Below are positions 5,835 to 63,513 of a stretch of 64,000 nt of DNA, piece after piece. Origin of the DNA: Ponticoccus alexandrii (GTDB lineage Bacteria; Pseudomonadota; Alphaproteobacteria; Rhodobacterales; Rhodobacteraceae); NCBI RefSeq assembly GCF_016806125.1, contig NZ_CP047170.1, positions 1 to 64,000 of the forward strand, in the 5' to 3' direction. The notes under the pieces were generated by a model. The model was given only the letters and a program-made list of their open reading frames with translations. It was not told the origin of the DNA and did no database searches. Each line of letters opens with the position of its first letter. Position 1 is the stretch's first letter. A program made the translations under genes and the position numbers.

Positions 5835-5836
5835 AT

Positions 5837-5854: not shown

Positions 5855-5874
5855 CCGCAATTGCATATTGCGGG
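5854..5874 (+). promoter_or_regulatory. Hairpin covering the pit ribosome-binding region
   Basis: CCCGCAAT (5854-5861) pairs perfectly with ATTGCGGG (5867-5874) across a 5-base loop. The right arm runs into the GGGAG Shine-Dalgarno stretch at 5872-5876, eight bases before ATG 5883, so folding would hide part of the ribosome-binding site. It could instead be a DNA dyad for a regulator. Confidence 0.5.
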
Positions 5875-5882
5875 AGTGAGTG

Positions 5883-38722: not shown

Positions 38723-38726
38723 TCCG

Positions 38727-46511: not shown

Positions 46512-47630
46512 ATGTCTGAGACCGACAAAGCGCCCGGCGTCGCCCTGATCGGCACGGGCTTCATGGGCAAATGCCACGCGATGGCGTGGAACAATGTCGC
46601 CACCGTCTTCGGCGTGCCGCGCCCCCGGCTGGAGGTGCTGTGCGACGTGACCGACGCCTCGGCCCGGACCCATGCGGCGGCCTTCGGGTTCCGGCGGGCG
46701 ACGACCGACTGGCAGGCGGCGGTGGCCGACCCGGCGGTGGACATCATCTCGATCACCACGCCGAACGGGTTGCACCGCCCGATGGCCGAAGCGGCGCTGG
46801 AGGCGGGCAAGCACGTCTGGCTGGAAAAGCCCATGGCGCTGACGCTGGAAGATGCAGAGGCGATGGCCGCGCTCTCCGCCGCCCGGCCCGGGCAGGTGAC
46901 CATGCTGGGCTACAACTACCGCCGCAGCCCCGCCTTTCAGGCCGCGCGCGCGCTGATCGCGGCGGGCGAGATCGGAGAGCCGCGTGCCTTTCGCGGTGTC
47001 TATGACGAGGACTATTCCGCCGATCCGGCCTTGCCGTGGTCGTGGCGGCTGATCCGTGAGGGCGGCGGGCTGGGTGCATTGGGCGATCTTGGCTGCCACC
47101 TCGTCAGCCAGATGATCGCGCTGATGGGGCCGGTGGCCGAACTGACCGCCATGACGCAGATCGCCATCCCTGAACGGCCCTCGCCCGACGGCCCCAAGCC
47201 GGTCGAGAACGAGGACAGCGCGCTTGCACTGATCCGCTTCGACTCGGGTGCGCAGGGGTCCTTTGCCACCTCGCGGGTGGCGCGCGGGCGCAAGTGTCGC
47301 CTGCAGTGGGAGGTACACGGCTCTGACGGCACGCTGGTCTTCGATCAGGAGAACATGAACGAGCTCTGGCTGCATCGCGCCAACGAGGCCGGGTTCACCC
47401 GCCACCTCACGGGGCCGGAGCAGCCGGATTTCGCCGCCTTCTGCCCCGGCGCGGGGCACAACTTCGGCTTCAACGAGATGAAGGTCATCGAGGCGCGCGA
47501 CCTTCTGGCAGCTATCGACGGCGCGCCCAACACCGGCCCGGATTTCGCCGAGGGCCTCGCGATAGAGCGCATCATTCACACCATGGCGGCCTCGGAGGGT
47601 CGCCTGGTCAGACTTGGAGAAGCGACATGA
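46512..47630 (+). CDS. Gfo/Idh/MocA-family oxidoreductase (second inositol dehydrogenase)
   Basis: 372 residues. NAD(P)-binding [15 protein letters not shown] at the start, [10 protein letters not shown] near 115 with the catalytic lysine, [14 protein letters not shown] for the active-site His. A paralogue of IolG in the same operon; such enzymes (IolX/IolW, IdhA) usually use scyllo- or other inositol isomers, widening the substrate range. Exact isomer unknown. Overlaps iolC by 4 bases. Confidence 0.88.
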
Positions 47631-49537
47631 AGGATCTCGACGTCATCACCATCGGCCGCGCGGGCGTGGACCTTTACGGCGCGCAGATCGGCGGGCGGCT
47701 GGAGGATATGGGCTCCTTCGACAAATACATCGGCGGCTCGCCCACCAATATCGCCTGCGGCAGCGCGCGGCTGGGCCTGAAGACCGCGCTGATATCCCGC
47801 GTGGGCGACGAACACATGGGGCGCTTCATCCTCGAACAGCTTGCGCGCGAGGGGGTCTGCACCGATGGCGTCGTGACCGACCCCGAGCGCCTGACCGCGC
47901 TGGTGATCCTCGGCATCCGCGATCAGGAACAGTTTCCGCTGATCTTCTACCGCGAGAACTGCGCCGACATGGCGCTTTGCGAGGATGACATCGACGAGGG
48001 CTTCATCCAGCGCGCCCGCGCCGTGGTGGTGACGGGCACGCATCTGTCGCATCCGCGCACCGAGGCGGCGGTGCTCAAGGCGCTGAAGCTGGCGCGCAAG
48101 CACGGGCTGCGCACGGCGCTCGACATCGACTACCGCCCGAACCTCTGGGGTGTGGCGGGGCATGGTGACGGCGAAAGCCGCTTCGTCGAAAGCGAGACGG
48201 TGACGGCCAAGCTGCTGTCGACGCTGCATCTGTTCGACCTGATCGTCGGCACCGAAGAGGAGTTCCACATCGCCGGCGGCTCGACCGACACCCTCGCCGC
48301 CCTGCGCCGGGTGCGCGAGAATTCCGCCGCGACGCTGGTCTGCAAGCGCGGCGCTCTGGGGGCGGTGGCCTTCGAGGGCGCGGTGCCGGACAGCCTTGAC
48401 GAGGGGCAGACAGGGCAGGGCTTCCCGATCGAGGTCTTCAACGTGCTGGGCGCGGGCGACGGGTTCTTCTCGGGCCTGCTCAAGGGCTGGATGGCGGACG
48501 CCGACTGGCCGACCGCGCTGAAATACGCCAATGCCTGCGGGGCCTTCGCGGTCAGCCGCCACGGCTGCACCCCCGCCTATCCATCTCTGGAAGAGCTGGA
48601 GTTCTTCCTTGCGCGCGGCGTGCAGCGCCCCGACCTGCGCAACGATCCCGAACTGGAGCAGGTGCATTGGGCCACCAACCGGCATGGCGACTGGTCGAGC
48701 GTGAAGACCTTCGCCTTCGACCACCGCCTGCAACTGGAAGAGATGGAGGGCTATAGCCCCGCCAAGGGCGCCGCCTTCAAGGAGCTGTGTCTGGAGGCCG
48801 CGCTGAAGGTGCAGAACGGCCAGCCGGGTTACGGCATTCTCTGCGACAACCGCATCGGGCGCTCGGCTCTGCACGCGGCCAGCGGCTCTGGCCTGTGGAT
48901 CGGGCGCCCGGTGGAACTGCCCGGTTCGCGCCCCATCGCGTTCGAGCCCGACCTCGGTGCCGATTTCGGGCGCCTGCGCGAATGGGCGCGCGAGAACGTG
49001 GTCAAGCTGCTGGTCTTCTGTCACCCGGACGACGACGCCGGGATGCGGGCGGTGCAGGAAGAGCGCGTGCATCGCCTTTTCACCGCCGCCCGCCGCAACG
49101 GGCTGGAATTCCTGCTGGAAGTGATCCCGTCGAAGGTCGGCCCGGTGGATGACGACACCGCCGCCACGCTGATCCAGCAGTTCTACGACGCGGGCGTCTA
49201 CCCCGACTGGTGGAAGCTGGAACCCTTCAAAACCGAGGCCGCATGGGCCAAGGCGGCTCAGGCCATCGAGCGCAACGACCCCCGCACCCGGGGCATCGTG
49301 GTTCTGGGCCTCGACGCGCCCGAGGCCGCACTTGCGGAAAGTTTCGCGCTGGCGGCGCGGCAACCGCTGGTCAAGGGTTTCGCCGTGGGCCGGACGATCT
49401 TTGGCGATGCCGCCCGGGCGTGGCTGAAGGGCGAGATGACCAATGCCGACGCGGTCGCACAGATGGCGGCCCGCTACACCCGCCTGTGCGAGATCTGGGA
49501 TGCGGCCCGCGCCGAGGCCCGGCAGCACGCGGCCTGA
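47627..49537 (+). CDS. iolC: 5-dehydro-2-deoxygluconokinase fused to DUF2090 aldolase-like domain
   Basis: 636 residues, about twice a plain IolC. Residues 1-320: PfkB-family kinase with [16 protein letters not shown] and the ATP/anion-hole motif [17 protein letters not shown]. Residues about 340-630: DUF2090, a class I aldolase-like TIM barrel ([12 protein letters not shown] ... WWKLEPFKT ... [11 protein letters not shown]). The fusion is common in proteobacterial iol clusters and is thought to supply the aldolase step (IolJ equivalent); no separate iolJ is present here. Twelve bases before iolD. Confidence 0.93.
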
Positions 49538-49549
49538 GGAGGACAAGAG

Positions 49550-51427
49550 ATGAGCAACACGATCCGACTGACCGCCGCGCAGGCCATGGTGAAATGGCTG
49601 GCCGCGCAGATGATCGAGGACGACGCCCCCGACAGCCAAGCGGGAGGGCAGGCCAGGGCCGAGCGGTTCATCGACGGCATCTGGGGCATCTTCGGTCATG
49701 GCAACGTGGCGGGTCTGGGCGAGGCGCTGGAGAAGGCCCGTCAGGACTTCCCCACTTGGCGCGGCCAGAACGAACAGACCATGGCCCATGCCGCCATCGC
49801 CTATGCCAAGGCCAAGAAGCGCAGGCGGGCCATGGCCGTGACCTCTTCGATCGGGCCGGGGGCCACGAACCTCGTGACCGCCGCCGCGCTGGCGCATGTG
49901 AACCGCCTGCCGGTGCTGCTGATCCCCGGCGACGTCTTCGCCAACCGCCGACCCGACCCGGTGCTGCAACAGGTCGAGGATTTCGAGGACGGCACGGTTT
50001 CGGCCAACGACTGCCTGCGGCCCGTGTCGCGCTACTTCGACCGCATTAGCCGCCCCGAACACCTGCTGACCGCGCTGCCCCGCGCACTGGCCACGATGAC
50101 GGACCCGGCCACCTGCGGGCCGGTCACGCTGGCCTTTTGTCAGGACACGCAGACAGAGGCCTACGACTACCCCGCCGAGTTCTTCGAGCGCCGCGTCTGG
50201 CGTATCCGCCGCCCGCAGCCGGACCCGCGCGAGGTCGCGGACCTCGTGGCGCTGATCAAGGCGGCCAAGGCCCCGGTGATCGTCGCCGGGGGCGGGGTGA
50301 TCTACGCGCAGGCCGAGGACACCCTTGCGCGCTTTGCCGAGACCCACGGCATCCCCGTGGTCGAGACGCAGGCGGGCAAGTCCGCGCTGGCGCAAGGCCA
50401 CCCGATGAACTTCGGCGCCAGCGGTGTCGATGGCTCCGCCGCCGCCAATGCTCTGGCCGCAGAGGCGGATCTGGTGATCGGCGTCGGCACGCGCTTTCAG
50501 GACTTCACCACCGGCAGCCGGACGCTGTTCTCGAACCCCGGGCGGCGGCTCGTCTCGATCAACGTGGCGGGCTATGACGCTGTCAAACACGGCGCCCTTC
50601 CGGTCATGGGCGACGCCAAAGCCACGCTCGAGGCGCTCTCCGACGCGCTCGGCAGCCACAGCGCGGGGGCCTTCGACCCCAAGGCCCGCACCGCGTGGCT
50701 GGATGCGGTGACGCACCATTGCCGCGACCGGCAGCGCGCGGCGGGCGACCTGCCCACCGATGCCGAGGTGATCGGCGCCGTCCAGCGCGCCACCGGCGAG
50801 GATTCCGTGGCCATGTGCGCCGCCGGAACCATGCCCGGCGCGCTGAAGCTGCTGTGGCAGCCGTCTCAGGGCGGCTACCACATGGAATACGGTTTCAGCT
50901 GCATGGGGTACGAGATCGCGGGCGCCATGGGCGTCAAGCTGGCCAGCCCCGAGCGCGAGGTGATCTGTTTCGTCGGCGACGGCAGCTACATGATGGCGAA
51001 CTCGGAACTGGCGACCGCCGTGATGCGCCGGGTGCCCTTCACCGTCGTGCTGACCGACAACCGGGGATATGGCTGCATCAACCGCCTGCAGCAGGGTTGC
51101 GGCGGCGCGCCCTTCAACAACCTCTACGCCGACAGCAACGTCGAGGCGCAGCCACAGATCGACTACGTGGCCCATGCCGCGTCCATGGGCGCCCATGCGG
51201 TCAAGGTGGGCAGCATCGCGGATCTGGAAACCCGGATCGCAGAGGCGCGCGGTCGCGACATTCCCACGGTGATCGTCATCGAGACGACCCCGCACGAGGG
51301 ACCCGGTTTCGGCGAGGCGGGTCACTGGTGGGACGTGGCCGTGCCCGAGGTCGGCTCCACCGAGGCCCTGAACAAGGCCTATGCCACCTATCTCGACAAC
51401 AAGCAGCGCCAGCGGCTCGTGAACTGA
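49550..51427 (+). CDS. iolD: 3D-trihydroxycyclohexane-1,2-dione hydrolase
   Basis: 625 residues. Thiamine-diphosphate enzyme opening the inositol-derived ring. Catalytic-Glu region GQNEQTMAHAAIAYAKAK near 75; central domain VIVAGGGVIYAQAEDTL; TPP-Mg motif GDGSYMMANSELAT...NRGYGCINRLQQG. Normal length for IolD. In operon order after iolC, before iolE. Confidence 0.96.
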   Translation: MSNTIRLTAAQAMVKWLAAQMIEDDAPDSQAGGQARAERFIDGIWGIFGHGNVAGLGEALEKARQDFPTWRGQNEQTMAHAAIAYAKAKKRRRAMAVTSSIGPGATNLVTAAALAHVNRLPVLLIPGDVFANRRPDPVLQQVEDFEDGTVSANDCLRPVSRYFDRISRPEHLLTALPRALATMTDPATCGPVTLAFCQDTQTEAYDYPAEFFERRVWRIRRPQPDPREVADLVALIKAAKAPVIVAGGGVIYAQAEDTLARFAETHGIPVVETQAGKSALAQGHPMNFGASGVDGSAAANALAAEADLVIGVGTRFQDFTTGSRTLFSNPGRRLVSINVAGYDAVKHGALPVMGDAKATLEALSDALGSHSAGAFDPKARTAWLDAVTHHCRDRQRAAGDLPTDAEVIGAVQRATGEDSVAMCAAGTMPGALKLLWQPSQGGYHMEYGFSCMGYEIAGAMGVKLASPEREVICFVGDGSYMMANSELATAVMRRVPFTVVLTDNRGYGCINRLQQGCGGAPFNNLYADSNVEAQPQIDYVAHAASMGAHAVKVGSIADLETRIAEARGRDIPTVIVIETTPHEGPGFGEAGHWWDVAVPEVGSTEALNKAYATYLDNKQRQRLVN

Positions 51428-51448
51428 CGCTGCGGGCAGGAGACATCA

Positions 51449-52342
51449 ATGATCCGTTTCGGCACCAACCCCATCGCATGGGCCAATGACGACGACCAGA
51501 GCCTTGGCGCGCATATCCCGACGGCGCGTATCCTCGACGAGGCCGGGCGCCAGATCGGCTTTGACGGAATCGAGAACGGCCACCGCTGGCCCGCCGACCC
51601 CGAAGAGCTGCGGCTGATGATGGAAGAGGCCGGGCTGGCTTTCATTTCCGGCTGGCACTCGCTGAACCTGCTCGCGCATTCGGTCGAGGCAGAGAAGGCC
51701 GCGATCCAGCCGCATCTGGACCGGCTGAAGCACAACGGCTGCACCGTCTGCATCGCCTGCGAGACCTCGAACTCGGTGCAGGGGCAGGACAGGCCGCTCT
51801 CCGACCGCCCGGTGCTGGGCGAAGCGGCGATGCGGGACTTCGGCGCCAAGGTCGAAGAGATCGCGCAATACTGCGCCGATCAGGGCATCGCGCTGGTCTA
51901 TCACCACCACATGGGCACGGTCGTGCAATCGCCCGAGGACATCGACGCCTTCATGGCGGCGACCGGTCCGGCGACCAAGCTGCTCTTCGACGCGGGCCAT
52001 TGCTTTTTCGGGGGCGGGGACCCCGAGGCGGTGCTGAAGAAGCACATCGCCCGCGTGCGCCATGTCCACGCCAAGAACGTCCGCCCCGCCATCCGCGCGC
52101 GGGTCGAGGCCGAGGGTCTGTCCTTCATGGACGGCGTCCGTGCCGGTGTCTTCACCGTCCCCGGCGATCAGGAGGGCGCGGTGGATTTCGCCCCGTTGCT
52201 GAAGGTCTTGGCCGGAAACCGTTATGACGGCTGGATCGTCATCGAGGCCGAGCAGGACCCGGACCAGCGCAACCCGCTGCTTTACCAGACGCTCGGCCTT
52301 GCCACCTTGAAACGCCAAGCCGCCGAGGCCGGCCTGATCTGA
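51449..52342 (+). CDS. iolE: 2-keto-myo-inositol dehydratase (inosose dehydratase)
   Basis: 297 residues, xylose-isomerase-like TIM barrel that dehydrates scyllo-inosose. [12 protein letters not shown] opening, [32 protein letters not shown] and [11 protein letters not shown] carry the metal-binding His/Glu/Asp residues; [10 protein letters not shown] ends the barrel. Eleven bases before iolB. Confidence 0.95.
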
Positions 52343-52353
52343 AGGAGACCCCC

Positions 52354-53151
52354 ATGCCCGATCTTCTCAAACGCCCCTTCGGGACCCACGGCAAGGTCCA
52401 TCAAATCACGCCGGAAAGCGCGGGCTGGCGCTATGTCGGTTTCGACCTCTGGCGCCTGCGCGCCGGAGAGACCGTGTCGGATGTCACCGGCACCGACGAG
52501 GTGATCCTCGTCATGGTCGAGGGCAAGGCCTCCCTTCAGGGTGCCGGTCAGGATTGGGGCGAGCTGGGCGACCGGATGAGTGTCTTCGAGAAGACGCCGC
52601 CGCATTGCCTCTATCTGCCGAACGGGTCGGACTGGTCCGCCACGGCCACCACCGATTGCGTGATCGCCGTCTGCAGGGCGCCGGGGCAGGGCGGGCATCC
52701 GGCGCGGCGCATCGGCCCGGATGGCATCACCCTGACCCAGCGCGGCGAGGGCTCCAACACCCGCCACATCAACAACATCGCCATGGAGGCCGAGGACTAT
52801 TGCGATGCGCTGCTGGTGACAGAGGTCTTCACGCCCGCGGGCAACTGGTCGTCCTACCCCAGCCACCGGCACGACGAGGATGACTTTCCGCGCATCACCT
52901 ACCTCGAAGAGACCTATTATCACCGGCTCAACCCGTCTGACGGCTTCGGCATCCAGCGCGTCTACACCGACGACCTGCAGTTGAACGAGACGATGGCCGT
53001 GCACGACGGCGACGTGGTCTGCGTGCCGCGCGGCCACCACCCCTGCGGCGCCCCGCACGGCTTCGAGATGTACTACCTCAACGTCATGGCGGGGCCGCTG
53101 CGCAAGTGGCGCTTCGTCGCCGCTCCGCCCGTCGAGCACCTGATGCGCTAA
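52354..53151 (+). CDS. iolB: 5-deoxy-glucuronate isomerase
   Basis: 265 residues, bicupin. Isomerises 5-deoxyglucuronate to 2-deoxy-5-keto-gluconate, the IolC substrate. WSSYPSHRHDEDDFPRITYLEETYYHR supplies the cupin metal ligands; DGDVVCVPRGHHPCGAPHGFEMYYLNVMAGP is the C-terminal cupin mark. RBS AAGGAGA. Confidence 0.95.
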   Translation: MPDLLKRPFGTHGKVHQITPESAGWRYVGFDLWRLRAGETVSDVTGTDEVILVMVEGKASLQGAGQDWGELGDRMSVFEKTPPHCLYLPNGSDWSATATTDCVIAVCRAPGQGGHPARRIGPDGITLTQRGEGSNTRHINNIAMEAEDYCDALLVTEVFTPAGNWSSYPSHRHDEDDFPRITYLEETYYHRLNPSDGFGIQRVYTDDLQLNETMAVHDGDVVCVPRGHHPCGAPHGFEMYYLNVMAGPLRKWRFVAAPPVEHLMR

Positions 53152-53179
53152 CGAGCCGCTGCGCCCCCCGGAGAACACC

Positions 53180-53953
53180 ATGACCTTTCAGCTTGCCGCC
53201 TGCGCCGAGATGCTCTGGCGCGACAAACCGATCGCGTGGCGCGTCGCGCGTCTGACCGAACGCGGCCTTGGCGTCGGCCTGTGGAACTGGCCCGACCACG
53301 ACCTGTCCAAGCTCGAAAAGGTCGGCGCCAACTACACCATCATGAACGGCTACCTCACCGGTCGGCTGACCGATGCCGAGGGCGCCGAGAGGCTGCTGAC
53401 GTCGGCGCGCGAGACCGCCGAGGTCGGCAAGCGGCTGGGGGTGGACCGGCTGAACCTCCATGGCACGGGACTGGGAGAGGGCGGCATTCCGATCCCCCAG
53501 CACGGCGCCTTTGCGCCGGGGATGGTCCTGCGCGCGCGCGAGACCCTGCACCGCCTCTGCGACATGGCCGAGGACATGGGCGTGGTCTACACGCTGGAGA
53601 ACCTGAACCCGCTGGATCATCCCGGCTGTCCCTTCGGGTCGACCGCCGATGTGCTGTCCCTGGTCTCGGCGGTGAACCGTCCGCAGTTGCGGATCAATCT
53701 CGACCTCTATCACACGCAGATCGGCGAGGGCGACCTGATCCGCTGGTGCCGGGCCTGCCTGCCGTGGATCGGAGAGGTGCAGGTCGCCGACAATCCCGGT
53801 CGCTGCGAGCCCGGCACCGGAGAGATCAACTATGCCGGTGTCGCCCGTGCCCTGCGCGACATGGGCTATACCGGTGCAGTGGGGATGGAGGCCTACGCGG
53901 CGGGCGACAGCGACGCCGCCGTCGAGGCCTTCGTGGCGGCCTTCACGCTGTAG
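53180..53953 (+). CDS. Hydroxypyruvate-isomerase-like sugar epimerase/isomerase (TIM barrel)
   Basis: 257 residues. Xylose-isomerase-like fold of the Hyi/OtnI group: LNLHGTGLGEGG, VYTLENLNPLDHPGC, LRINLDLYHTQIGEGDL and GEVQVADNPGRCEPGTGEINY are characteristic metal-binding strands (Glu, Asp, His, Glu). Twenty-eight bases after iolB, so probably the last gene of the inositol operon, possibly an IolI-type inosose isomerase by position. The alternative is a tetrulose/ketose isomerase for the adjoining dha genes. Not resolved. Confidence 0.82.
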   Translation: MTFQLAACAEMLWRDKPIAWRVARLTERGLGVGLWNWPDHDLSKLEKVGANYTIMNGYLTGRLTDAEGAERLLTSARETAEVGKRLGVDRLNLHGTGLGEGGIPIPQHGAFAPGMVLRARETLHRLCDMAEDMGVVYTLENLNPLDHPGCPFGSTADVLSLVSAVNRPQLRINLDLYHTQIGEGDLIRWCRACLPWIGEVQVADNPGRCEPGTGEINYAGVARALRDMGYTGAVGMEAYAAGDSDAAVEAFVAAFTL

Positions 53954-54038: not shown

Positions 54039-56123
54039 TCAGCCGACGCGCAGGGCAAAGCCGTCGCAGGGGGCAAGCAGCAGCTCTTCGAGCTGTTCGT
54101 CAAGCACGATCACGGTAATCGAAGCCCCGTTCATGTCGAGCGAGGTGCAATAGGATCCGACCCATGTGCGCAAGACCTCGACCCCGCGAGCAGCCAGCCG
54201 CTGGTGAACGCGGCGGTTGAGGATGCCCAGCTCCATCATCGGCGTGCCGCCCAGCCCGTTGACCAGAAGCCCGATGCGGCTGCCCGGCCCCAGTTGCGCC
54301 TCCGCGATCAGCCCGTCCATGATGCGGTCGGCGATGTCGTCTGCGGCCATCATCGGGCCGCGCTGCACGCCCGGCTCGCCGTGGATGCCCACGCCGATCT
54401 CGATCTCGCCCTCGCCAAGCTCGAACGAGGGGCGGCGGGTTTCGGGCAGCGACCCGGCGGTGAGGCCCACGCTCATGGTAAAGGTGGCGGCGTTGGCCTT
54501 CTGAACGATGCGTTCGCAATCCTCCAGCGGCAACATCCGGTCGCAGGCAGCCCCGGCGATCTTGAAGATGAAGACGTTGCCGGCGGTGCCGCGCCGCCCG
54601 TCGCGATCCGAGGCGGGGGAATAGGCAATGTCGTCGGTGGTCACGATGGTGCGCACCTCGATGCCCTCGGCGGCGGCCAGTTCCCCGGCCATCTCGAAGT
54701 TCATGACGTCGCCCGAGTAATTGCCGAAGACATGCAGCACGCCCGCGCCGGTCGAGGCCGCCCGGCAGCAGGCAAGGATGCGGTCGGGGGGCGGGGCGGC
54801 GAAAATATTGCCCACCGCCACCGCATCGGCCAACCCCGGCCCGACATAGCCCAGAAACAGCGGCTCGTGGCCCGCGCCGCCGCCGATCACCAGCCCGACC
54901 TTTCCGGTGCGGGCCGGAGCCGCCCGGCGGATCGCCCGGCTGGAACCCCCGATGGCGGCGATGTGGCCGGGATGGGCCTTCAGCAGACCCTCCATCGCCT
55001 CGTCCACCGCGGATCGGGGATCGTTGAGGAACTTCTTGACCGGCGCGCGGGAGGTCTCGCCCGGCGGTGCGGTCTCGGTGGGCGTGGGCGACGGCGGGCG
55101 GCGTGACAGGCTTTGGCGCAGCACCGGCGCGCCGTCGGCGCGCAGGATGCCCTCGGCGGTATCGGCGTCGGTCACCAGCACGTTGATGTAACCGCCACGC
55201 AGCGCCGCCAGCAGGGCAGGGACCTTGTCGAAGCCCCCCGATACGCCGATCCGGGTGCGCACCTGTTGCAGCTGCTCCAGCGCGAGCCCGATGGTGCGCT
55301 CGTCGAGCGGACCGATCACCGGCCTGCCACTGGCGTCGATGAACCGCCCCAGCAACGACCCCACCGCGTCGCAGTAATGGTCGTGCTGTTCCAGCGCGTT
55401 CGAGAAAAAGCCGCTGGTGTGGATGGTCGAGTTCGGGCGCAGCGAAGACACGCCGAGCAGGATCGTGTCCAGTTCGGACAGTGCCTGCATCTGCTCGCGC
55501 AGGACCGGCTCTTGCAGCAGCAGGTCGCGCACCTGCGGGTGCGACACGATGCAGGGCGCCGACAGCGGCACAACCTGCGCCGACAGCGCCTCGGACAGGC
55601 GGGCGGCGACCGCCTCGGGGGTGTAGGGGATGGCGGCGGTGGTGCCGCCTGTCGCCTGCACCACGCGCAGATCGGGCAGAGCCTGCGGTTTCACCGCGGC
55701 GGCCACCGCCAGCATCGTGCGCCCCCAGCCGATGCCGACGGTCTGCGCCGGGCGCAGGTGCCAGCCCAGCGTCCGCGCCCCGGCGTCGCCCAACCGGTCT
55801 ATCAGGCTGCGCTGGCCGCCCGTCGTGGGCACCACAAGACAGTCGCGGAGGCCGAAATGATCGACCATCTGTTGCGCCAGCGAAAGGCTGCGCAGCCGGT
55901 CCACGGCAATCGAGATATTGACGATGCCGCGCTCGCGCGCCTCTGACAGGTAGGCGATGACGGTCGGTCGCGATAGGCCCATGGTGGCGGCGATGTCGCT
56001 TTGGGTCATGCCCTCTTCGTAGTAGAGCCATGCGGCCCAGAGCACCGGATCCTCGCCGAACTTCAGCGGCGGGCGGCGGGTGCCGTCGGCTGTCGCGGAC
56101 CGTTTGGCGCGGCCTTCCTTCAT
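54039..56123 (-). CDS. SorC-family transcriptional regulator fused to a dihydroxyacetone kinase DhaK domain
   Basis: 694 residues, two proteins in one. Residues about 25-335: SorC/DeoR-like sugar-responsive regulator with HTH MTQSDIAATMGLSRPTVIAYL and a sugar-binding domain (VGIGWGRTMLAVAAAVKP; CIVSHPQVRDLLLQEP; TRIGVSGGFDKVPALLAALRGGYINVLVTD). A Pro-rich linker at 342-360. Residues about 361-694: full DhaK domain, with GGGAGHEP (His419), GNYSGDVMNF (Asp472) and GVGIHGEPG (His581, the covalent hemiaminal histidine), so it looks catalytically complete. Start overlaps the dhaL stop (ATGA). Likely senses and phosphorylates the same ketose. Confidence 0.93.
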   Translation of the reverse strand: MKEGRAKRSATADGTRRPPLKFGEDPVLWAAWLYYEEGMTQSDIAATMGLSRPTVIAYLSEARERGIVNISIAVDRLRSLSLAQQMVDHFGLRDCLVVPTTGGQRSLIDRLGDAGARTLGWHLRPAQTVGIGWGRTMLAVAAAVKPQALPDLRVVQATGGTTAAIPYTPEAVAARLSEALSAQVVPLSAPCIVSHPQVRDLLLQEPVLREQMQALSELDTILLGVSSLRPNSTIHTSGFFSNALEQHDHYCDAVGSLLGRFIDASGRPVIGPLDERTIGLALEQLQQVRTRIGVSGGFDKVPALLAALRGGYINVLVTDADTAEGILRADGAPVLRQSLSRRPPSPTPTETAPPGETSRAPVKKFLNDPRSAVDEAMEGLLKAHPGHIAAIGGSSRAIRRAAPARTGKVGLVIGGGAGHEPLFLGYVGPGLADAVAVGNIFAAPPPDRILACCRAASTGAGVLHVFGNYSGDVMNFEMAGELAAAEGIEVRTIVTTDDIAYSPASDRDGRRGTAGNVFIFKIAGAACDRMLPLEDCERIVQKANAATFTMSVGLTAGSLPETRRPSFELGEGEIEIGVGIHGEPGVQRGPMMAADDIADRIMDGLIAEAQLGPGSRIGLLVNGLGGTPMMELGILNRRVHQRLAARGVEVLRTWVGSYCTSLDMNGASITVIVLDEQLEELLLAPCDGFALRVG

Positions 56124-56731
56124 GCCCGGTCCTTCCGTTGAGACAGGGTTTCGGCCAGCGCCTCAAGCACCACCAGCGCAGAGCTGGCACCGGGATCGAT
56201 GCGGCCCAGGGTGCGGCTGCCCAGCCGGGCGGCGCGACCCCGGACGGCGATCATCGCGCGCGTCGCCTCCAGCCCGGTTGTCGCGGCAGCCAGCACGCCC
56301 GCCATGTCGCCGCCCGTGGCGCTGCGCGCAGCCGGGGCCCAGACGTCCAGCATGGTGCAGTCGCCGGGCTGCGCCTTGCCGCGTCGGGCGATGCCGTCGT
56401 GGAAAGCCGCGATCAGCCTGCCCGCGCCGATGCTTTCGGGTCCGCTGCGCGCCGCGGCTTCCAGAAAGGCGGTGGCGTAGAGCGGCCCCACCGTCGCGCC
56501 GACCGCGCTGAGAAAGCGCTGGCCCGCCGCGCGCAGGGCGCCGGGTAGATCCTCGCCGTCAGAGGCAAACCTGGCGGCGGCCGCCGAGAAGCCGTCGGCC
56601 ATCGACGCGCCGTGATCGCCATCGCCGACTTCCCCATCCAGCGCGGACAGCTCGATCCTTCGGGATTCGAGCTTTTGCGCCGCGCGTTTCAGGAACGCGG
56701 CCAGCGCCGCGCGGTCGAGGTCTTCGGTCAT
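56120..56731 (-). CDS. dhaL: Dihydroxyacetone kinase subunit DhaL, second copy
   Basis: 203 residues from ATG 56731 (GGAGGAG upstream; an extended start at 56785 is less likely). Nucleotide-binding subunit of ketose kinase; the Mg-binding Asp cluster is DGEVGDGDHGASMADG near residue 30, followed by GPLYATAFLEAA and RAARLGSRTLGRIDPGASSALV. Partner of the DhaK half of the overlapping regulator fusion. Separated from the first dhaL by 108 bases of non-coding DNA. Confidence 0.9.
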   Translation of the reverse strand: MTEDLDRAALAAFLKRAAQKLESRRIELSALDGEVGDGDHGASMADGFSAAAARFASDGEDLPGALRAAGQRFLSAVGATVGPLYATAFLEAAARSGPESIGAGRLIAAFHDGIARRGKAQPGDCTMLDVWAPAARSATGGDMAGVLAAATTGLEATRAMIAVRGRAARLGSRTLGRIDPGASSALVVLEALAETLSQRKDRA

Positions 56732-56839
56732 CCATGCTCCTCCGCGTCCACCGGCCAGAGTGACGCCCGGCGAAGGAGTTTGCAATCTGGTGACGCGTCG
56801 TTGCGCACTCTGCCCCCCGACGCCCCCGGGCGGCCCGGT

Positions 56840-57472
56840 TCAGCCCAGCCGCGCCTCGATCTCGTTGGCGAGGGTGACGAGGATCAGCGCGCAAGAGGTC
56901 GCGCCCGCGTCCTGCACCCCGCGCGACCGCTCGCCCAGGCGGCTGGCGCGGCCGATCTTCGCGATCATGTCGCGGGTGGCATCGCGGCCCTCTTCGGCAG
57001 CGGCGCGGACCGCGTTCAACGTTGCGGGAAAGCCTTGCGGCGCGGTCTCTTCGGCGGCGCGGACGGCAGGGCACAGCGCGTCGAGCAGGCATTTGTCGCC
57101 GGGTTTCGCCTCTCCGATGGCCATGACGCCCTCGGCCCCGGCGGCCAGCATGGCGGCGAAGGTGGGGGCATCGATGCGATCTTTGCCCGCGACCACATCC
57201 GCCATGTCGGAAAAGAACATGCCGTAGAGCGGCCCCATGGAGCCGCCGATCTCACCCATCAGCACATCGGTGACGGTGGCAAAGGCAGCGTCCAGCGTGT
57301 CGGCGTCGTCGATGCGCTCTGCGGCGCGACCAAAGCCCTTGGCCATGTTGTTGCCATGGTCGCCATCGCCGATCTTGCCGTCGATCTCGGACAGCCAGGC
57401 GCGGTTCTCGACCACCGCCGCGGCCACCCGGCGCACCATCGCACCCGATCCTGCGTTTTCGAAACTTGCCAT
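56840..57472 (-). CDS. dhaL: Dihydroxyacetone kinase subunit DhaL, first copy
   Basis: 210 residues. DGKIGDGDHGNNMAKGF holds the Mg/nucleotide aspartates; GGSMGPLYGMFFSDMA, PGDKCLLDAL and GRASRLGERSRGVQDAGATSCALILVTL follow. Twelve bases after the stand-alone dhaK, its probable partner. No DhaM/EI-type gene nearby, so the phosphate source (ATP or PTS) cannot be decided. Confidence 0.92.
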   Translation of the reverse strand: MASFENAGSGAMVRRVAAAVVENRAWLSEIDGKIGDGDHGNNMAKGFGRAAERIDDADTLDAAFATVTDVLMGEIGGSMGPLYGMFFSDMADVVAGKDRIDAPTFAAMLAAGAEGVMAIGEAKPGDKCLLDALCPAVRAAEETAPQGFPATLNAVRAAAEEGRDATRDMIAKIGRASRLGERSRGVQDAGATSCALILVTLANEIEARLG

Positions 57473-57484
57473 TTGCGGTCCTCC

Positions 57485-58489
57485 TCAGCCCTGCACCGTC
57501 ATGCCGGGGGCGGTGGCGGGCGCGTCGATCAGCGCCGCCAGCTCGTCGTCCAGCTTCATCACGGTCAGGGTCACGCCCATCATGTCCAGCGAGGTAAAGT
57601 AGTTGCCCACGAAGGGCCGGTGGATCGAGATACCCTTGTCCTCCAGCCCCCTGGCGATGCGATCGTAGACCACGTAAAGCTCGTTGATCGGGGTGGCGCC
57701 CAGACCCGAAAGCAGCACGCAGACGCGGTCGCCGCTGTCCAGATCGTGGTCGTCCAGCACGATCTGCAGCATCCGGTTGGCCACCGCGTCGGCGGATTCA
57801 AGATCGGCGACCTCGGTGCCCGGCTCGCCGTGGTGGCCGATGCCGACCTCCATCTTGCCGGCGGGGATGTCGAAATTGGGTTTGCCATTGGCGGGCAGGG
57901 TGCAGGGCGCCAGGCCAACCCCGACCGACCGGGTCGCGTCGATCGCCTTCTGCGCGGTGGCCTGTACCTCGGCCAGGCTGGCGCCGGTGGCGGCCTTGGC
58001 GCCACCGACCTTCCACATCAGGATCTCGCCCGCGACGCCGCGCCGCTTGGCGCGTTCCTCTGCGGGGGCAGAGCAGACGTCGTCGTTGGCGACGACGGTG
58101 CGCACCTCGATGCCCTCCTTGGCCGCCATGCGGGCGGCCATCTTCACGTTCATGTTGTCGCCGGCGTAGTTGCCATAGAGCACCGCCACGCCCGCGCCGC
58201 CATCGGCGGCGCGCATCGCTTCGAGAAAGGCCTTGGCGGTGGGCGACGAGAACAGCTCGCCCACGGCGACCGCGTCCACCATGCCGGGTCCGGCGTAACC
58301 CACGAAAGCCGGTTCGTGCCCCGACCCGCCGCCAGTTACCACACCGACGCGGCCGGTTTCGCCGCAGCCGCGGGCCAGCACAACGCGGGGATTCGCGGAC
58401 GACAGGCTGACCAGATCGGCATGCGCCCGGACAAAGCCGGAGACGGTTTCATCCACGATATCGTCAGGGTCGTTGAACAGTCTTTGCAT
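57485..58489 (-). CDS. dhaK: Dihydroxyacetone kinase subunit DhaK (stand-alone)
   Basis: 334 residues from ATG 58489 (CAGGAGGAGG upstream). Ketose-binding subunit: GGGSGHEP (His58), GNYAGDNMN (Asp111) and GIGHHGEPG (His220, covalent substrate histidine) are intact. The natural substrate may be dihydroxyacetone or a four-carbon ketose (erythrulose), as DhaK homologues serve both. First gene of the minus-strand dhaK-dhaL-dhaL-regulator operon, divergent from an ABC importer. Confidence 0.94.
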   Translation of the reverse strand: MQRLFNDPDDIVDETVSGFVRAHADLVSLSSANPRVVLARGCGETGRVGVVTGGGSGHEPAFVGYAGPGMVDAVAVGELFSSPTAKAFLEAMRAADGGAGVAVLYGNYAGDNMNVKMAARMAAKEGIEVRTVVANDDVCSAPAEERAKRRGVAGEILMWKVGGAKAATGASLAEVQATAQKAIDATRSVGVGLAPCTLPANGKPNFDIPAGKMEVGIGHHGEPGTEVADLESADAVANRMLQIVLDDHDLDSGDRVCVLLSGLGATPINELYVVYDRIARGLEDKGISIHRPFVGNYFTSLDMMGVTLTVMKLDDELAALIDAPATAPGMTVQG

Positions 58490-58721
58490 GAAGCCTCCTC
58501 CTGTCGCGCCCCCGGATGGGCGCGGTTCCGGCGAGAGTCCATGCAAAGGGCCCGCCACCGTCTTCCTTTCATTTCCGAGACATGTGGCGGCTGTCAACCG
58601 AAATCCCGCAGAGAATTTTACAAAACAAATATTGCCGTTGACAAAAGTAGAGATGCGGGCTTCTTTCAGGGGCGGGAGGCCCGGCGGCTCTGAAAGCCCC
58701 GGCCTCAGTGGGAGGAATGTC
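58490..58721. promoter_or_regulatory. Divergent promoter region, dhaK operon and ABC importer
   Basis: AT-rich core at 58610-58650. On the minus strand TTGTCA (58643-58638) and TAAAAT with about 18-base spacing form a dhaK promoter candidate. TTTTGT occurs twice as a direct repeat on that strand within the same core, a candidate binding site for the SorC-type regulator. The importer start has RBS GGGAGGA. Confidence 0.45.
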
Positions 58722-59729
58722 ATGAAATCCAGACGGCTGGACCCGCAGCTCGTGTTCCTTGTCGGGATCAACGCCGCCATCGTGATCGCGGCGATGGCGC
58801 TGGTGGGCGAGCGGTTCATGTCCCTCTACAATTTCCAGTCCATGGGCACGCAGGTCCCGGAGCTGGCGCTGCTCGCGCTTGGCGTGATGCTGGCGATGGT
58901 CTCGGGCAACGGCGGCATCGATCTGTCGGGCATCGCCCTGGCGAACCTGTCGGGCGTGGTCGCCTATCTGGCGACCTCCGCCGCCTTTGACGCAAGCGTC
59001 GCACCGGTGGCTTTCTTCGCGATGTTCGCGGGGATCGCGCTGCTGACCGGCGTGGCGGGCGGTGCGCTGAACGGCGCACTCATCGGGTTCGCGGGAATGA
59101 CGCCGATCATCGCCACGCTGGGCACGCAGCTTCTGTTCACCGGGGTCGCGGTGGGGCTGACCGGCGGCTCGGCGCTGCAACTGGGCTATGTGCCGGTGAT
59201 CGACGACTTCGGCAACATGCCCTACATGGGCGTGCCCCGGACCTTCGCGATCCTGATCGTCATCGCGCTGGCACTGGCGGCACTGCTGCGGTTCTCGCGC
59301 TTCGGCATCCACCTGTTCCTGATGGGCTCGAACCCCAAGGCGGCGCGCTTCGCCGGGGTGCGGGTGCCCTTGATGCTGTTTCGTACCTATCTTCTGGCCG
59401 GGATGCTGGCCTCGATCGCGGGGATCGTCATCGCGGCGCGGACTTCTTCGATCAAATGGGACTATGGCAGCTCTTACGTGCTGGTCGCCATCCTGATCGC
59501 CGTCATGGCGGGGGTGCGCCCCGAGGGCGGCTACGGGCGGGTGATCTGCGTCCTGCTCTCGGCCATCGCGCTGCAGATCCTGTCGAGCCTGTTCAACTTC
59601 ATGCAGATCTCGAACTTCTTCCGCGACTGCGCATGGGGGCTGCTGCTGCTGGCGTTCCTTGCCAACGCGCGGCTCGACTGGGCGCGCTACACAAGTGCCC
59701 TGAGGCGCCGGCACCCCGCCGCCGCCTGA
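58722..59729 (+). CDS. Ribose-type ABC permease A of the dha-linked importer
   Basis: 335 residues from ATG 58722. BPD_transp_2 family, about ten membrane helices. VPELALLALGVMLAMVSGNGGIDLSGIA and GGALNGALIGFAGMTPIIATLGTQLLFTGVAVGL are the hallmark segments; RFSRFGIHLFLMGSNPKAARFAGV is the cytoplasmic coupling loop. Unusually the first gene of the operon, ahead of the binding protein, with a second permease at the far end. Confidence 0.92.
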   Translation: MKSRRLDPQLVFLVGINAAIVIAAMALVGERFMSLYNFQSMGTQVPELALLALGVMLAMVSGNGGIDLSGIALANLSGVVAYLATSAAFDASVAPVAFFAMFAGIALLTGVAGGALNGALIGFAGMTPIIATLGTQLLFTGVAVGLTGGSALQLGYVPVIDDFGNMPYMGVPRTFAILIVIALALAALLRFSRFGIHLFLMGSNPKAARFAGVRVPLMLFRTYLLAGMLASIAGIVIAARTSSIKWDYGSSYVLVAILIAVMAGVRPEGGYGRVICVLLSAIALQILSSLFNFMQISNFFRDCAWGLLLLAFLANARLDWARYTSALRRRHPAAA

Positions 59730-59823: not shown

Positions 59824-60825
59824 ATGCATTTCAACAAACCGACCCTGACCGCGCTGGCCGCATCCATGGCAATGCTGGGCCTTGCGGGCACCGCACAGGC
59901 GCAGGACAAGGAAATCGTCACCGTGGTCAAAGTCACGGGCGAAAACTGGTTCACCCGCATGGAAGAGGGCGTGAACGCCTACGAAGCGGACACCGACGGC
60001 ATCGCCGCCCGTCAGGTCGGACCGGGCCGGGCCGATGCGGCGCAGCAGGCCGCCATCGTGCAGGATCTCATCGCGCAGGGCGTCGACGCGCTGGCCATCG
60101 TGCCGATGGACCCCTCGACGCTGGAAGGCGTGCTGCGCCGCGCGCAGCAGCGCGGGATCACCGTGATCACCCATGAGGCCGACAATATGGTGAACACCCA
60201 GCTCGACCTGGAAGCCTTCGACAACGCAGAATTCGGCGCGCATTTCGCCGAGGACATCGCCGAGTGCATGGGCCAGTCAGGCAAGTGGACCTCCTTCGTC
60301 GGTTCGCTCGGCTCTCTGACCCATGTGCAATGGGCCGACGGCGGCGCGGACTACATGGCGCAGTTCCCCGAGATGGAGCTTGTTTCGCCCAAGAACGAGA
60401 GCTTCAACGACGCCAACCGCGCCTATGAGCTGGCCAAGGAAATCCTGCGCAGTCATCCCGACATCAAGGGCTTTCAGGGCGGCTCGGCCATCGACGTGAT
60501 CGGAATCGGCCGCGCGGTCGAGGAAGCCGGGCTCGAGGATGAAACCTGCGTCTACGGTCTTGGCCTGCCCAAGGACAGCTCTGCCTATCTGGAAAGCGGC
60601 GCGGTGGACGGCATCGCCTTCTGGGACCCGAAGGATGCGGGCTATGTCATGAACATCCTCGCCCACAAGGTGCTGAACGGCGAAGAAATCGCCACCGGCG
60701 ACGACCTTGGCGTGCCGGGTTACACCAATGTGACCGTCAGCGACGGGCCGGGTGAGGGCAAGATCGTCCGTGGCCAGGCCTGGGTCGACGTGACGGCGGA
60801 CAACTGGTCCGACTTCCCGTTCTGA
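59824..60825 (+). CDS. Ribose-type ABC substrate-binding protein (ketose/polyol?)
   Basis: 333 residues, signal peptide about 1-27 (LGLAGTAQAQD). Autoinducer-2/ribose-type periplasmic protein: IVTVVKVTGENWFTRMEEGV, DLIAQGVDALAIVPMDPSTLE, GITVITHEADN, IKGFQGGSAIDVIGIGRAVEEAG. Imports a small sugar or polyol that is the likely source of the kinases' ketose substrate. A stem-loop follows the gene. Confidence 0.9.
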   Translation: MHFNKPTLTALAASMAMLGLAGTAQAQDKEIVTVVKVTGENWFTRMEEGVNAYEADTDGIAARQVGPGRADAAQQAAIVQDLIAQGVDALAIVPMDPSTLEGVLRRAQQRGITVITHEADNMVNTQLDLEAFDNAEFGAHFAEDIAECMGQSGKWTSFVGSLGSLTHVQWADGGADYMAQFPEMELVSPKNESFNDANRAYELAKEILRSHPDIKGFQGGSAIDVIGIGRAVEEAGLEDETCVYGLGLPKDSSAYLESGAVDGIAFWDPKDAGYVMNILAHKVLNGEEIATGDDLGVPGYTNVTVSDGPGEGKIVRGQAWVDVTADNWSDFPF

Positions 60826-60915: not shown

Positions 60916-62451
60916 ATGCCCGATCCCTTTCTGGAAACCCGCGCGCTGCATAAACGCTATGGCGGTGTGCATGCGCTGAAGGGGGTCAGCCTGAGAATCG
61001 AACGCGGCAAGTTCTACCACCTGCTGGGCGAGAACGGCTGCGGCAAGTCCACGCTGATCAAGATCATCTCGGGGGCGCAGCCCGCCACCTCGGGGCAGGT
61101 CATCGTCGAGGGGCGCGACATGACCGGGCTGGACCCGATCCAGGCGCTGGATGCGGGGATCGAGACGGTCTATCAGGATCTGTCGCTGCTGCCGAACCTG
61201 ACGGTGACCGAGAACATCGGTCTGTCCGAGCAACTGGTCGAAGGGCATGGCGGGCTGTTCCGCAGGCTCGACCGGGGCCGCGTGATCCAGACCGCGCGGC
61301 GCGCGCTGGAAACCGTCGGCCTGCCCACCGACCGCGCCTTCCTGAACCGCCCCATCGACACGCTGCCGATCGCGCTGCGCCAGCGCGTGGCGATCGCCCG
61401 CGCCGTGGCGGGCGAGGCGGGGTTGGTCATCATGGACGAGCCGACAACCTCGCTGACCCGGCGCGAGGTCGACACGCTGATCCGCACGGTGCGCCGCCTT
61501 CAGCAGAATGGCGCCGCAGTGCTTTTCGTCACCCATAAGCTGGACGAGGCGCGCGAAATGGGCGGCACGGGGCTGGTGATGCGCGACGGCGAGCTGGTGC
61601 AGACCGTTGACGTGGGACAGGCCAGCAATGCCGAGATTGGCCACTGGATGACGGGCCGCGAACTGGAACAGGGGCGCTATCGCGCCGCCGCGCTGCCGCA
61701 GGGGGCGCCACCGCTCTTGCAGGTCGACGGGCTGAGCCTTGCCGGGCACTACAGCGACCTGTCGCTGAGCGTCGCGCCGGGCGAGATCCTCGGCCTGACC
61801 GGGCTGGCGGATTCGGGGCGCAACGAACTGGCCTTGTCGCTGGCTGGGCTGGCGCGACCCGACACCGGCACGGCCAGGCTGGAGGGCAGGCCGCTGGACC
61901 TGTCGGCCCCGCACCGCGCCATTGCGGCGGGGGTCGCCTATGTACCCGAGGACCGGCTGACCGAGGGTCTGTTCCTCGAAAAGCCGATTTCCGAGAACAT
62001 CACCATGTCGATCCTGGACAGGCTCAGGGGCGCGCTTGGCCTTGTGGACCGGCGCCGTGCCCAAGCGCGGGCGCAGCAGGTGCTGGAGGATCTCAGGATC
62101 GTCGCCAGCGACGTGGACGCGCCGGTCTCGTCGCTGTCGGGCGGCAACCAGCAGCGGGTCCTGATCGGGCGCTGGCTGGCGACCGAGCCACGCCTGCTGA
62201 TCCTGCACGGGCCGACCGTGGGGGTCGATGTGGGATCCAAGGACACCATCTTCCGCATCATTCAGGCGCAGGCCGAGGCGGGCATGGGCATTGTCATCGT
62301 TTCGGACGACCTGCCGGAGTTGTTGCAGAACTGCGACCGCATCGCGGTGATGCGGAACGGGCGCATCCACGACACCTTCGAGGCCGCAGATATCGACGAA
62401 GACAGGCTCTACACGGCCATCGCGGGCGCGCAGGCGCTGGATGCGGCGTAA
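60916..62451 (+). CDS. Ribose-type ABC ATPase (two domains) of the dha-linked importer
   Basis: 511 residues, RbsA-like tandem ATPase. Domain 1 (1-250): Walker A GENGCGKST, Walker B VIMDEPTTSL, switch THKLDEA intact, but its signature is LPIALRQR instead of LSGGQ. Domain 2 (265-505): signature LSGGNQQRVLIGRWL intact, but Walker A is the degenerate GLADSGRNEL and Walker B reads LILHGPTVGVDVG, lacking the catalytic Asp-Glu. Together they leave one complete ATP site (domain 1 Walker, domain 2 signature). Confidence 0.93.
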   Translation: MPDPFLETRALHKRYGGVHALKGVSLRIERGKFYHLLGENGCGKSTLIKIISGAQPATSGQVIVEGRDMTGLDPIQALDAGIETVYQDLSLLPNLTVTENIGLSEQLVEGHGGLFRRLDRGRVIQTARRALETVGLPTDRAFLNRPIDTLPIALRQRVAIARAVAGEAGLVIMDEPTTSLTRREVDTLIRTVRRLQQNGAAVLFVTHKLDEAREMGGTGLVMRDGELVQTVDVGQASNAEIGHWMTGRELEQGRYRAAALPQGAPPLLQVDGLSLAGHYSDLSLSVAPGEILGLTGLADSGRNELALSLAGLARPDTGTARLEGRPLDLSAPHRAIAAGVAYVPEDRLTEGLFLEKPISENITMSILDRLRGALGLVDRRRAQARAQQVLEDLRIVASDVDAPVSSLSGGNQQRVLIGRWLATEPRLLILHGPTVGVDVGSKDTIFRIIQAQAEAGMGIVIVSDDLPELLQNCDRIAVMRNGRIHDTFEAADIDEDRLYTAIAGAQALDAA

Positions 62452-62463
62452 GGACAGCAGACC

Positions 62464-63513
62464 ATGACCATGACACGCACCGACTCCCCCGACGTGACGC
62501 AACCTGCAACCCCGCACTCCGCCGGCTACCGCTTCTGGACCTGGTCCGCGCAGCACCCGACGGTGTTCCCGCTGGCGCTGATCGTACTGACCTGCCTTGT
62601 GGTGGGGGCGATCAACACCGACTTCTGGCAGCTGGCCAATCTGTTCGACATCCTGCGCGCCTCGGTGGTGCGGGGGCTGTTCGCACTGGGGGTGCTGGTG
62701 GTTCTGGCCTCGGGCGGGCTGGATGTGTCCTTCACCGCCGTCGCAGCGCTGGTGATGTACACGCTGACGCTATTCGTGGTGAATGTCGCGCCGGACCTCG
62801 GCATGGCGCCCATTCTGGCGCTGGCGGCGCTGACAGGCGCGGGGCTGGGTGCGATCAACGGGCTGCTGGTCAACGTGCTGAAGGCGCCGGCGCTGATCGT
62901 CACCATCGGCACGCAATACGCCTTTCGCGGCTTCCTGCTGACCTTTGTCGGCACGGCACTGTTCATGAACATTCCCGCAGCGATGGACGGGTTCGGACGG
63001 CTGACGCTGATCTCGGTCACCACCGAGCGCGGGCTGGCGGTCGAGCTTCCGGCCTATTTCCTGGTGCTTCTGGTGGCGGCGCTGGTCACCTGGTGGATGC
63101 TTAACTTCACCATGATCGGCCGGGCGATCTTTGCCGTGGGCGGCAAACCGGACATCGCCGCGCGGCTGGGCTACAGGGTTGGCCGCGTGCGGGTCTTCGC
63201 CTTTGCCTTCGCCGGGCTGCTGGCGGGTCTGGCGGGGGTGATCCACGTCACCGCGAACCGGCTGGCCAATCCCTTCGACCTTGCCGGAAGCGAGTTGCCC
63301 GTGATCGCCGCCGTTGTGCTGGGCGGCGCCCGCATCACCGGCGGTTCGGGCAGCGTTCAGGGTACCTTGCTGGGCGTTCTGCTGATCACTTTGGTCAGCA
63401 ACGTGCTGATCCTCGTCGGAATCCCCAGCAGCTGGCAGACCGCGATCCTTGGTGGCTTCATTCTTGTAGCGGGCTTGTTCTTCGCCCGTCTCGACAAGGT
63501 GCGCGCCGCCTGA
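62464..63513 (+). CDS. Ribose-type ABC permease B of the dha-linked importer
   Basis: 349 residues. BPD_transp_2: VRGLFALGVLVVLASGGLDVSFTAVAALVMY, GLGAINGLLVNVLKAPALIVTIGTQYAFRGFLLTF and the C-terminal VVLGGARITGGSGSVQGTLLGVLLITLVSN. Hydrophilic 28-residue N-terminus. With permease A it probably forms a heterodimer, whereas many RbsC permeases are homodimers. Last gene of the operon. Confidence 0.92.
   Translation: MTMTRTDSPDVTQPATPHSAGYRFWTWSAQHPTVFPLALIVLTCLVVGAINTDFWQLANLFDILRASVVRGLFALGVLVVLASGGLDVSFTAVAALVMYTLTLFVVNVAPDLGMAPILALAALTGAGLGAINGLLVNVLKAPALIVTIGTQYAFRGFLLTFVGTALFMNIPAAMDGFGRLTLISVTTERGLAVELPAYFLVLLVAALVTWWMLNFTMIGRAIFAVGGKPDIAARLGYRVGRVRVFAFAFAGLLAGLAGVIHVTANRLANPFDLAGSELPVIAAVVLGGARITGGSGSVQGTLLGVLLITLVSNVLILVGIPSSWQTAILGGFILVAGLFFARLDKVRAA

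Follow-up and report, generated by a model that had tools for sequence, protein, structure and literature searches.

What might a cell gain by encoding a sugar-responsive regulator and a subunit of a ketose kinase as one protein, and which half of such a protein would sense the signal? The question is raised by a gene in the 64,000-nucleotide stretch of DNA analysed here (the window), the product of which joins a SorC-type regulatory module to a DhaK domain. The initial annotation had described this arrangement as a single frame, and the frame, 694 aa long, was indeed found to be kept in 38 relatives. The gene and its parts are as follows:

54039-56123, minus strand: SorC-DhaK fusion gene, a single uninterrupted frame of 694 aa
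55899-56054, minus strand: HTH DNA-binding domain, residues 24-75 (weak Pfam HTH matches, LsrR/SorC/DeoR alignment, structure match)
55140-55892, minus strand: SorC effector domain (Sugar-bind, PF04198), residues 78-328 (Pfam)
55044-55118, minus strand: variable linker of low model confidence, residues 336-360 (alignment, AlphaFold, dN/dS)
54063-54992, minus strand: complete DhaK domain (Dak1, PF02733), residues 378-687 (Pfam)
54867-54869, minus strand: His419 codon, aligned to E. coli DhaK His56
54708-54710, minus strand: Asp472 codon, aligned to E. coli DhaK Asp109
54381-54383, minus strand: His581 codon, aligned to the ketose-binding His of E. coli DhaK

The numbering and roles of His56 and Asp109, as well as the ketose-binding role of the histidine aligned with His581, are those that we take to apply to the E. 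coli enzyme. Pfam profiles place Sugar-bind at residues 78-328 (197 bits, cut-off 27) and Dak1 at residues 378-687 (373 bits, cut-off 31.4). Seven HTH-type Pfam models match at about residues 30-78, HTH_24 exactly at its cut-off and the other six below theirs, and the N-terminal part of the protein aligns to LsrR, SorC and DeoR from residue 24-30 on. Foldseek comparison of the AlphaFold model (built from 38 fusions; mean pLDDT 78.8, pTM 0.75) matched one half to full-length SorC, LsrR and DeoR and the other half to the DhaK proteins of E. coli and Lactococcus. The regions modelled below 50 pLDDT are residues 1-23, residues 336-360 and several loops, one of which contains His419. Variability of the linker among the aligned fusions, together with its low model confidence, makes a tether more likely than a rigid relay.

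Taken alone, the fused DhaK is a ketose-binding subunit, and a kinase is functional only together with DhaL, the gene for which lies immediately upstream. The fusion scores below the equivalog cut-offs of both DhaK (TIGR02363; 361 vs 406 bits) and DhaQ (TIGR02362; 204 vs 413 bits), and the stand-alone DhaK1 of the same locus is likewise under the former (356 bits). Within the effector domain, Lys300 is invariant in 39/39 aligned fusions and aligns with a lysine in LsrR, SorC and DeoR that presumably contacts phosphate in LsrR. Thr158 aligns with the lysine of the B. subtilis DeoR motif VVQLKGG, which we take to be the Schiff-base lysine of DeoR; a DeoR-like Schiff base between the fusion and its effector was accordingly discarded.

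The genome scan detected at least 580 relatives of the fusion, of which the best 80 were kept; 38 of these (L003-L041 minus L039) span both halves, and the matches in L042-L082 are confined to the DhaK part or its vicinity. One ortholog is about 88-89% identical to the window fusion and the 37 others are 51-60% identical, while at least 80% of the query was covered in 110 of the 1,073 plasmid records matched. The three key residues singled out by the initial annotation, His419, Asp472 and His581, had been numbered correctly and are invariant in 39/39 aligned fusions; this alignment omits L015 (its DhaK part is identical to that of L014) and L039 (cut by its contig), and a second fusion alignment additionally omits L113. 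Loss of catalysis in the fused DhaK is thus not seen at the residues checked. Between the window fusion and its nearest ortholog, dN/dS was 0.05 for the HTH, 0.11 for the sugar domain, 0.40 for the linker and 0.09 for DhaK. Across nine close fusion pairs picked by hand, the ratio ranged from 0.006 to 0.051 in the HTH, from 0.004 to 0.109 in the sugar domain, from 0.021 to 0.090 in DhaK and from 0.039 to 0.401 in the linker. These ratios indicate that purifying selection acts on both halves. A frameshift or an assembly artefact is very unlikely, since the frame is kept in the 88% ortholog and 37 more relatives, with selection on both halves. A conserved internal start yielding free DhaK was also considered, and is not supported by start-codon and SD checks across 39 fusions: codon 362 is ATG in 0/39 and GTG in 8/39, an SD-like 4-mer lies ahead of it in 1/39, and any in-frame ATG within the linker occurs in just 8/39.

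The fusion is the last gene in a run of four, DhaK1 - DhaL1 - DhaL2 - SorC-DhaK2. The run diverges from the genes of a sugar ABC transporter on one side and converges with inositol genes on the other:

56120-56785, minus strand: DhaL2, which presumably binds ATP as the partner of the fused DhaK (start either TTG 56785 or 56731; ATGA overlap with the fusion)
56840-57472, minus strand: DhaL1 (start may be 57439)
57485-58489, minus strand: stand-alone DhaK1 (Dak1 match, tree)
58722-59729, plus strand: ABC sugar permease 1, in the divergent operon (family match)
59824-60825, plus strand: ABC sugar-binding protein (family match)
60916-62451, plus strand: ABC sugar ATPase (best models under their cut-offs)
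62464-63513, plus strand: ABC sugar permease 2 (operon position and matches in related loci)

The genes for inositol catabolism at 47627-53953 (PfkB-DUF2090, IolD, IolE, IolB and a TIM barrel resembling a sugar isomerase) converge on the dhaK operon and leave 85 bases between their end and the fusion stop. Further upstream, at 37670-41134, the window also carries NAD biosynthesis genes, NadA and a quinolinate phosphoribosyltransferase.

That a DhaL gene overlaps the fusion had been stated before, and the overlap is with DhaL2, the Asp triad of which is intact. The proposed search for further SorC-DhaK architectures and their neighbourhoods returned many fusions, and a DhaL closest to the window DhaL2 adjoins the fusion in 42/42 locus rows (41 distinct records, L015 being the same as L115). 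A DhaL2-type neighbour was likewise present in 6/7 fusion loci fetched later, the neighbour in L153 scoring nearer to DhaL1. In the tree, the 44 DhaL2 rows form one clade (support 99) and the 38 DhaL1 rows another (support 100), and the three catalytic Asp are kept in 44/44 DhaL2 and 36/36 DhaL1 rows. DhaK1 is found within the locus in 36/42 fusion rows and is missing from L018, L026, L033, L034, L036 and the contig-cut L039; L018 and L026 carry a stand-alone DhaK2-like gene in its place. Fused DhaK and DhaK1 constitute separate clades and are about 41% identical, which rules out an origin of the fused domain by local duplication of DhaK1 (the DhaK tree omits L114, L115 and matches shorter than 250 aa). 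The gene just upstream of DhaL1-DhaL2-SorC-DhaK in L036 (Tropicimonas; 5675-6328) encodes a fructose-6-phosphate aldolase (TalC/FSA).

Profile searches detected two Dak1 and two Dak2 proteins in the window genome. DhaM (TIGR02364) was not found in that genome, the same model matching 3/14 controls, and the window kinase is for this reason presumably ATP-dependent. Genome G738 (estimated 100% complete, 40 contigs) possesses a single Dak1, the fused one, and the fusion is therefore its only DhaK-type protein; the single Dak1 of G948 is a stand-alone one. DhaL2 of the window and of L003 are 77% identical and the two DhaL1 proteins 91%, so that DhaL2 diverges faster. In both of these DhaL2 proteins a lysine kept in 42/44 DhaL2 and in 52/53 outside DhaL rows is replaced by cysteine, and this replacement could weaken the window's own fused kinase.

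What the regulatory half might bind was approached through the intergenic regions of the fusion loci, where a recurrent palindrome was first spotted by eye. In its extended form the consensus reads TTGACAWWTGTCRA, with a second half-site, GA-TATTGTCAA, about nine bases further along. The exact core TGACAWWTGTC is present in 32/42 fusion loci (33 matches in 749 kb), against 0-3 matches in 20 first-order Markov simulations and one in 585 kb of 41 control loci. Of the 33 matches, 29 are no more than 500 bases away from the start of a transporter or kinase frame; the other four (L008, L011 twice, L031) lie at least 66-93 bases before the alignment-estimated start of the ATPase. A matrix was built from 32 distinct sites, none of them from the window, L003 or L140-L153, and its best site in the window falls between the two divergent operons:

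58617-58652, minus strand: predicted operator, best matrix site in the 64-kb window
58615-58644, minus strand: sigma70-like promoter TTGTCA-18-TAAAAT before the dhaK operon, overlapped by the predicted operator (promoter search)

This site scores 16.7, the next one 7.0; the maximum in 12 simulated windows was 10.2, and 0/500 simulated intergenic regions reached the window score. With a flat background the scores are 10.2 and 5.8. The promoter that it overlaps is the sole promoter-like site of the region. The initial annotation had pointed to 58490-58721 as the place to look for DNA binding, and the operator-like site does lie inside it, as far as sequence evidence goes. The window site is degenerate and lacks the exact core, as does that of L003, in which a second site scores 13.9 as against 17.4.

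The predicted motif appears to track the fusion. The seven later-fetched fusion loci, L147-L153, have best sites of 18.6-51.3, located 22-135 bases upstream of where an operon gene is estimated to begin. In L033 and L149 the site precedes the fusion itself by 16 and 22 bases, suggesting that the fusion is autoregulated there. Among seven loci with stand-alone DhaK2-like genes, six (L140-L145) score at most 3.8 and the seventh, L146, scores 13.4. No convincing operator was found in L018 (11.0, upstream of another SorC gene), L026 (3.5) or L020 (-0.7) in a scan of the fusion loci other than L039; the promoter of L020 is likely to be off its contig, and L018 and L026 are real exceptions. Part of the motif conservation may reflect the promoter, since the motif includes a -35-like TTGACA, and the locus counts are not independent because many of the loci are related. 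The layout resembles that of the B. subtilis DeoR operator, described in the consulted part of PMC11229326 as a palindrome with a weaker second half overlapping the promoter.

The substrate can be approached from the active site and from the neighbouring genes. Position 467 of the fusion aligns with E. coli DhaK Lys104, a residue that we assume to contact the ketose; it is glycine in 41/41 fused rows, L039 included, and in 35/35 neighbouring DhaK1 rows, while 72 other DhaKs have lysine in 55 cases and glycine in 14. An SDR at least 69% identical to one in L115 occurs in 29/42 locus rows (28/41 records). The L115 gene, the one SDR tested, lies just before DhaK1 and belongs to the GolD/DthD family (409 bits, cut-off 286), and the single sugar-binding protein tested, also from L115, has as its best PDB match 4rsm, the ligand of which is presumably D-threitol. 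Together, the GolD/DthD-family SDR and the 4rsm-like binding protein suggest a route from threitol via erythrulose to erythrulose phosphate for the rhizobial clusters with the SDR; for Mycobacterium smegmatis, the portions consulted of PMC10733421 and PMC12780249 describe tetritol routes of this kind. A close DthD-like SDR is absent from the window (best match 40%), and the Sinorhizobium meliloti cluster, like that of the window, lacks the L115-type SDR and has a different type of binding protein; the C4 assignment accordingly comes from orthologous clusters. The ketose is probably a C4 sugar of the erythrulose type rather than dihydroxyacetone. Of the two substrates named in the initial annotation, erythrulose fits better, and the link to dihydroxyacetone is weak given the glycine in place of Lys104 and the scores below the DhaK and DhaQ cut-offs.

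As for the effector, the part of PMC11229326 consulted describes the SorC effector domain as a phosphosugar-binding fold, reports that DeoR responds to deoxyribose-5-phosphate, and states that CggR is freed from DNA by FBP and by DHAP, not by fructose-6-phosphate. DHAP, a CggR effector, is the product of a DhaK. By analogy, sensing of the kinase product through the SorC domain is favoured over sensing in the DhaK pocket; it is the simpler reading because the full effector domain, with its phosphosugar-binding fold, has been retained.

All full-length fusions found are from Alphaproteobacteria, each beside a DhaL gene and usually with a separate second DhaK/DhaL pair. They were counted in 5/398 genomes of a phylum sample, 10/292 of an order sample and 1/385 of a class sample; each count includes the window genome, the samples overlap and few candidates per genome were scored. 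The fusion is kept across Rhizobiales and Rhodobacterales with both halves intact. The ortholog from the laboratory strain S. meliloti 1021 (L113) is located on pSymB at 312533-314590; its locus has a divergent ABC transporter of the window's type and an exact operator core at L113:10007.

Two loci contain what may be the unfused state, which is based on this pair. In L145 a separate divergent SorC gene adjoins an ABC transporter, an SDR and single DhaK2-like and DhaL2-like genes, and in L146 a DhaK2-like gene, a DhaL2-like gene and a separate SorC gene occur together, the genome concerned (G1007) also having a fusion elsewhere. A SorC match was absent from the 15 kb fetched around the stand-alone DhaK2-like loci L140-L144 (5 of 7 such loci). 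Since L145 and L146 carry them separately yet together, the fusion probably joined a regulator to a kinase subunit already sharing its locus. Within a tree of 56 hand-picked rows, the fused L033 and L149 group with unfused DhaK2-like sisters (support 91), which would agree with two fusion events as well as with a single one that was later lost in places; L018_5228 is a stand-alone sister of the fused DhaK, not a fusion. A third transporter type (two ATPases plus permeases) adjoins the fused or unfused DhaK2/DhaL2 genes of L018, L026, L033, L146 and L149; the one L018 ATPase scanned is UgpC/MalK-like, and a PfkB kinase is present in four of these five loci.

We lean towards the view that the fusion is a repressor of the SorC/DeoR type to which a ketose-binding kinase subunit of its own is tethered on the C-terminal side, the SorC domain sensing the phosphoketose made by that kinase as CggR senses DHAP. 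The invariant catalytic residues, the co-inherited DhaL2, the single Dak1 of G738 and the operator motif support this model, as do the DeoR-like operator layout, the release of CggR by DHAP and the unfused L145 and L146. Without substrate, a fusion tetramer (a dimer of SorC dimers) would sit on the predicted operator at 58617-58652 and block the kinase promoter, and probably also that of the divergent ABC transporter. Ketose entering the cell would be bound covalently by the fused DhaK and phosphorylated from ATP by DhaL2; the SorC effector domain of the same assembly would then capture the phosphoketose, upon which the DNA would be released and the operon turned on. DhaK1/DhaL1 may be a parallel kinase pair for bulk flux or for a second ketose. 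Only tentatively do we go further and suggest a self-inducing kinase-repressor, in which the fusion and DhaL2 would make the very phosphoketose that dislodges the protein, reading flux on its own DNA-bound assembly rather than in the cytoplasmic pool, with DhaL2 setting the gain.

The signal might instead be read by the DhaK half, occupancy of His581 by ketose and docking of DhaL2 altering DNA binding directly, as DhaK and DhaL do to DhaR; this we consider unlikely. A signal of this type, covalently bound ketose or docked DhaL, had been put forward in the initial annotation; although possible, it is backed by no result, and the SorC effector domain is kept. The underlying statement that DhaK and DhaL act on the regulator DhaR is real (PMC5890353, in the part consulted, and the titles of PDB entries 4lrx, 2iu4 and 2iu6), and this precedent, the co-inheritance of DhaL2 and the presence of DhaK1 in 36/42 locus rows, leaving DhaK2 free for signalling, would all agree with a sensing DhaK. 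However, the full SorC effector domain is retained under selection, the linker varies and is modelled with low confidence, the catalytic residues are never lost, and G738 has no Dak1 other than that of the fusion. The same genome, along with His/Asp/His in 39/39 fusions and the DhaL2 Asp in 44/44 rows, renders it highly improbable that the fused DhaK is a regulatory pseudo-kinase binding ketose without turnover, with DhaK1/DhaL1 as the enzyme, even though a second kinase pair occurs in most loci and the window DhaL2 has cysteine for lysine.

It is also doubtful that the two functions are tethered without cross-talk, the fusion just fixing the dosage of an ordinary repressor and a kinase subunit and co-localising them. 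A variable linker would suit such an arrangement; in L145, SorC and DhaK2 serve a similar operon as separate proteins, and the grouping of fused L033 and L149 with unfused sisters (support 91) means that fusion may not be required. Yet a single architecture is maintained across many genera with both halves constrained, and mere tethering does not account for the choice of this DhaK over DhaK1 as the regulator's fusion partner.

The repressor reading can be set beside known systems. Like the SorC/DeoR repressors (B. subtilis DeoR, E. coli LsrR, Klebsiella SorC), the fusion has HTH and Sugar-bind domains, in residues 24-330, and its predicted operator is also, as for DeoR, a palindrome with a second half-site over the promoter, albeit degenerate in the window; unlike them it has a C-terminal DhaK domain, and Thr158 at the lysine of VVQLKGG. 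With DHA kinase subunits (DhaK of E. coli and L. lactis, the ATP-type C. freundii Dak) it shares the Dak1 fold, His/Asp/His and a DhaL partner, but it is fused behind a regulator, has glycine for Lys104, scores under the equivalog cut-off and comes from a genome in which DhaM was not found. The DhaR-DhaK-DhaL and DhaS-DhaQ circuits likewise bring a DhaK-family protein and a regulator together at a kinase operon, which is how we take DhaS-DhaQ to act; here the two are covalently fused, with SorC instead of DhaR or DhaS, and unlike in DhaQ the active-site residues are intact (DhaQ model, 204 vs 413 bits). In the trigger enzymes BirA, NadR and PutA, regulator and enzyme form one chain, and BirA makes its own corepressor. 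By its domains and their conservation the fusion resembles a trigger enzyme, although the folds are unrelated and its presumed phosphoketose signal would induce rather than repress.

The architecture itself is already known, as the initial annotation had supposed: NCBI names the same protein family 'bifunctional sugar-binding transcriptional regulator/dihydroxyacetone kinase subunit DhaK', and the records examined give the name and do not state operator, partner or mechanism. No functional study of a SorC-DhaK fusion was found in the open-licence PMC literature, outside which subscription journals mostly lie. What is new here is the operator prediction, the co-inherited DhaL2, the genome with a single Dak1, the unfused relatives and the product-sensing model. 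The SorC regulators studied so far respond to phosphosugars from their own pathways, and DhaK and DhaL partner an unrelated regulator; the fusion unites both in one chain. The predicted operator and the two unfused relatives would allow a direct test of whether fusing kinase and repressor changes how flux is read.
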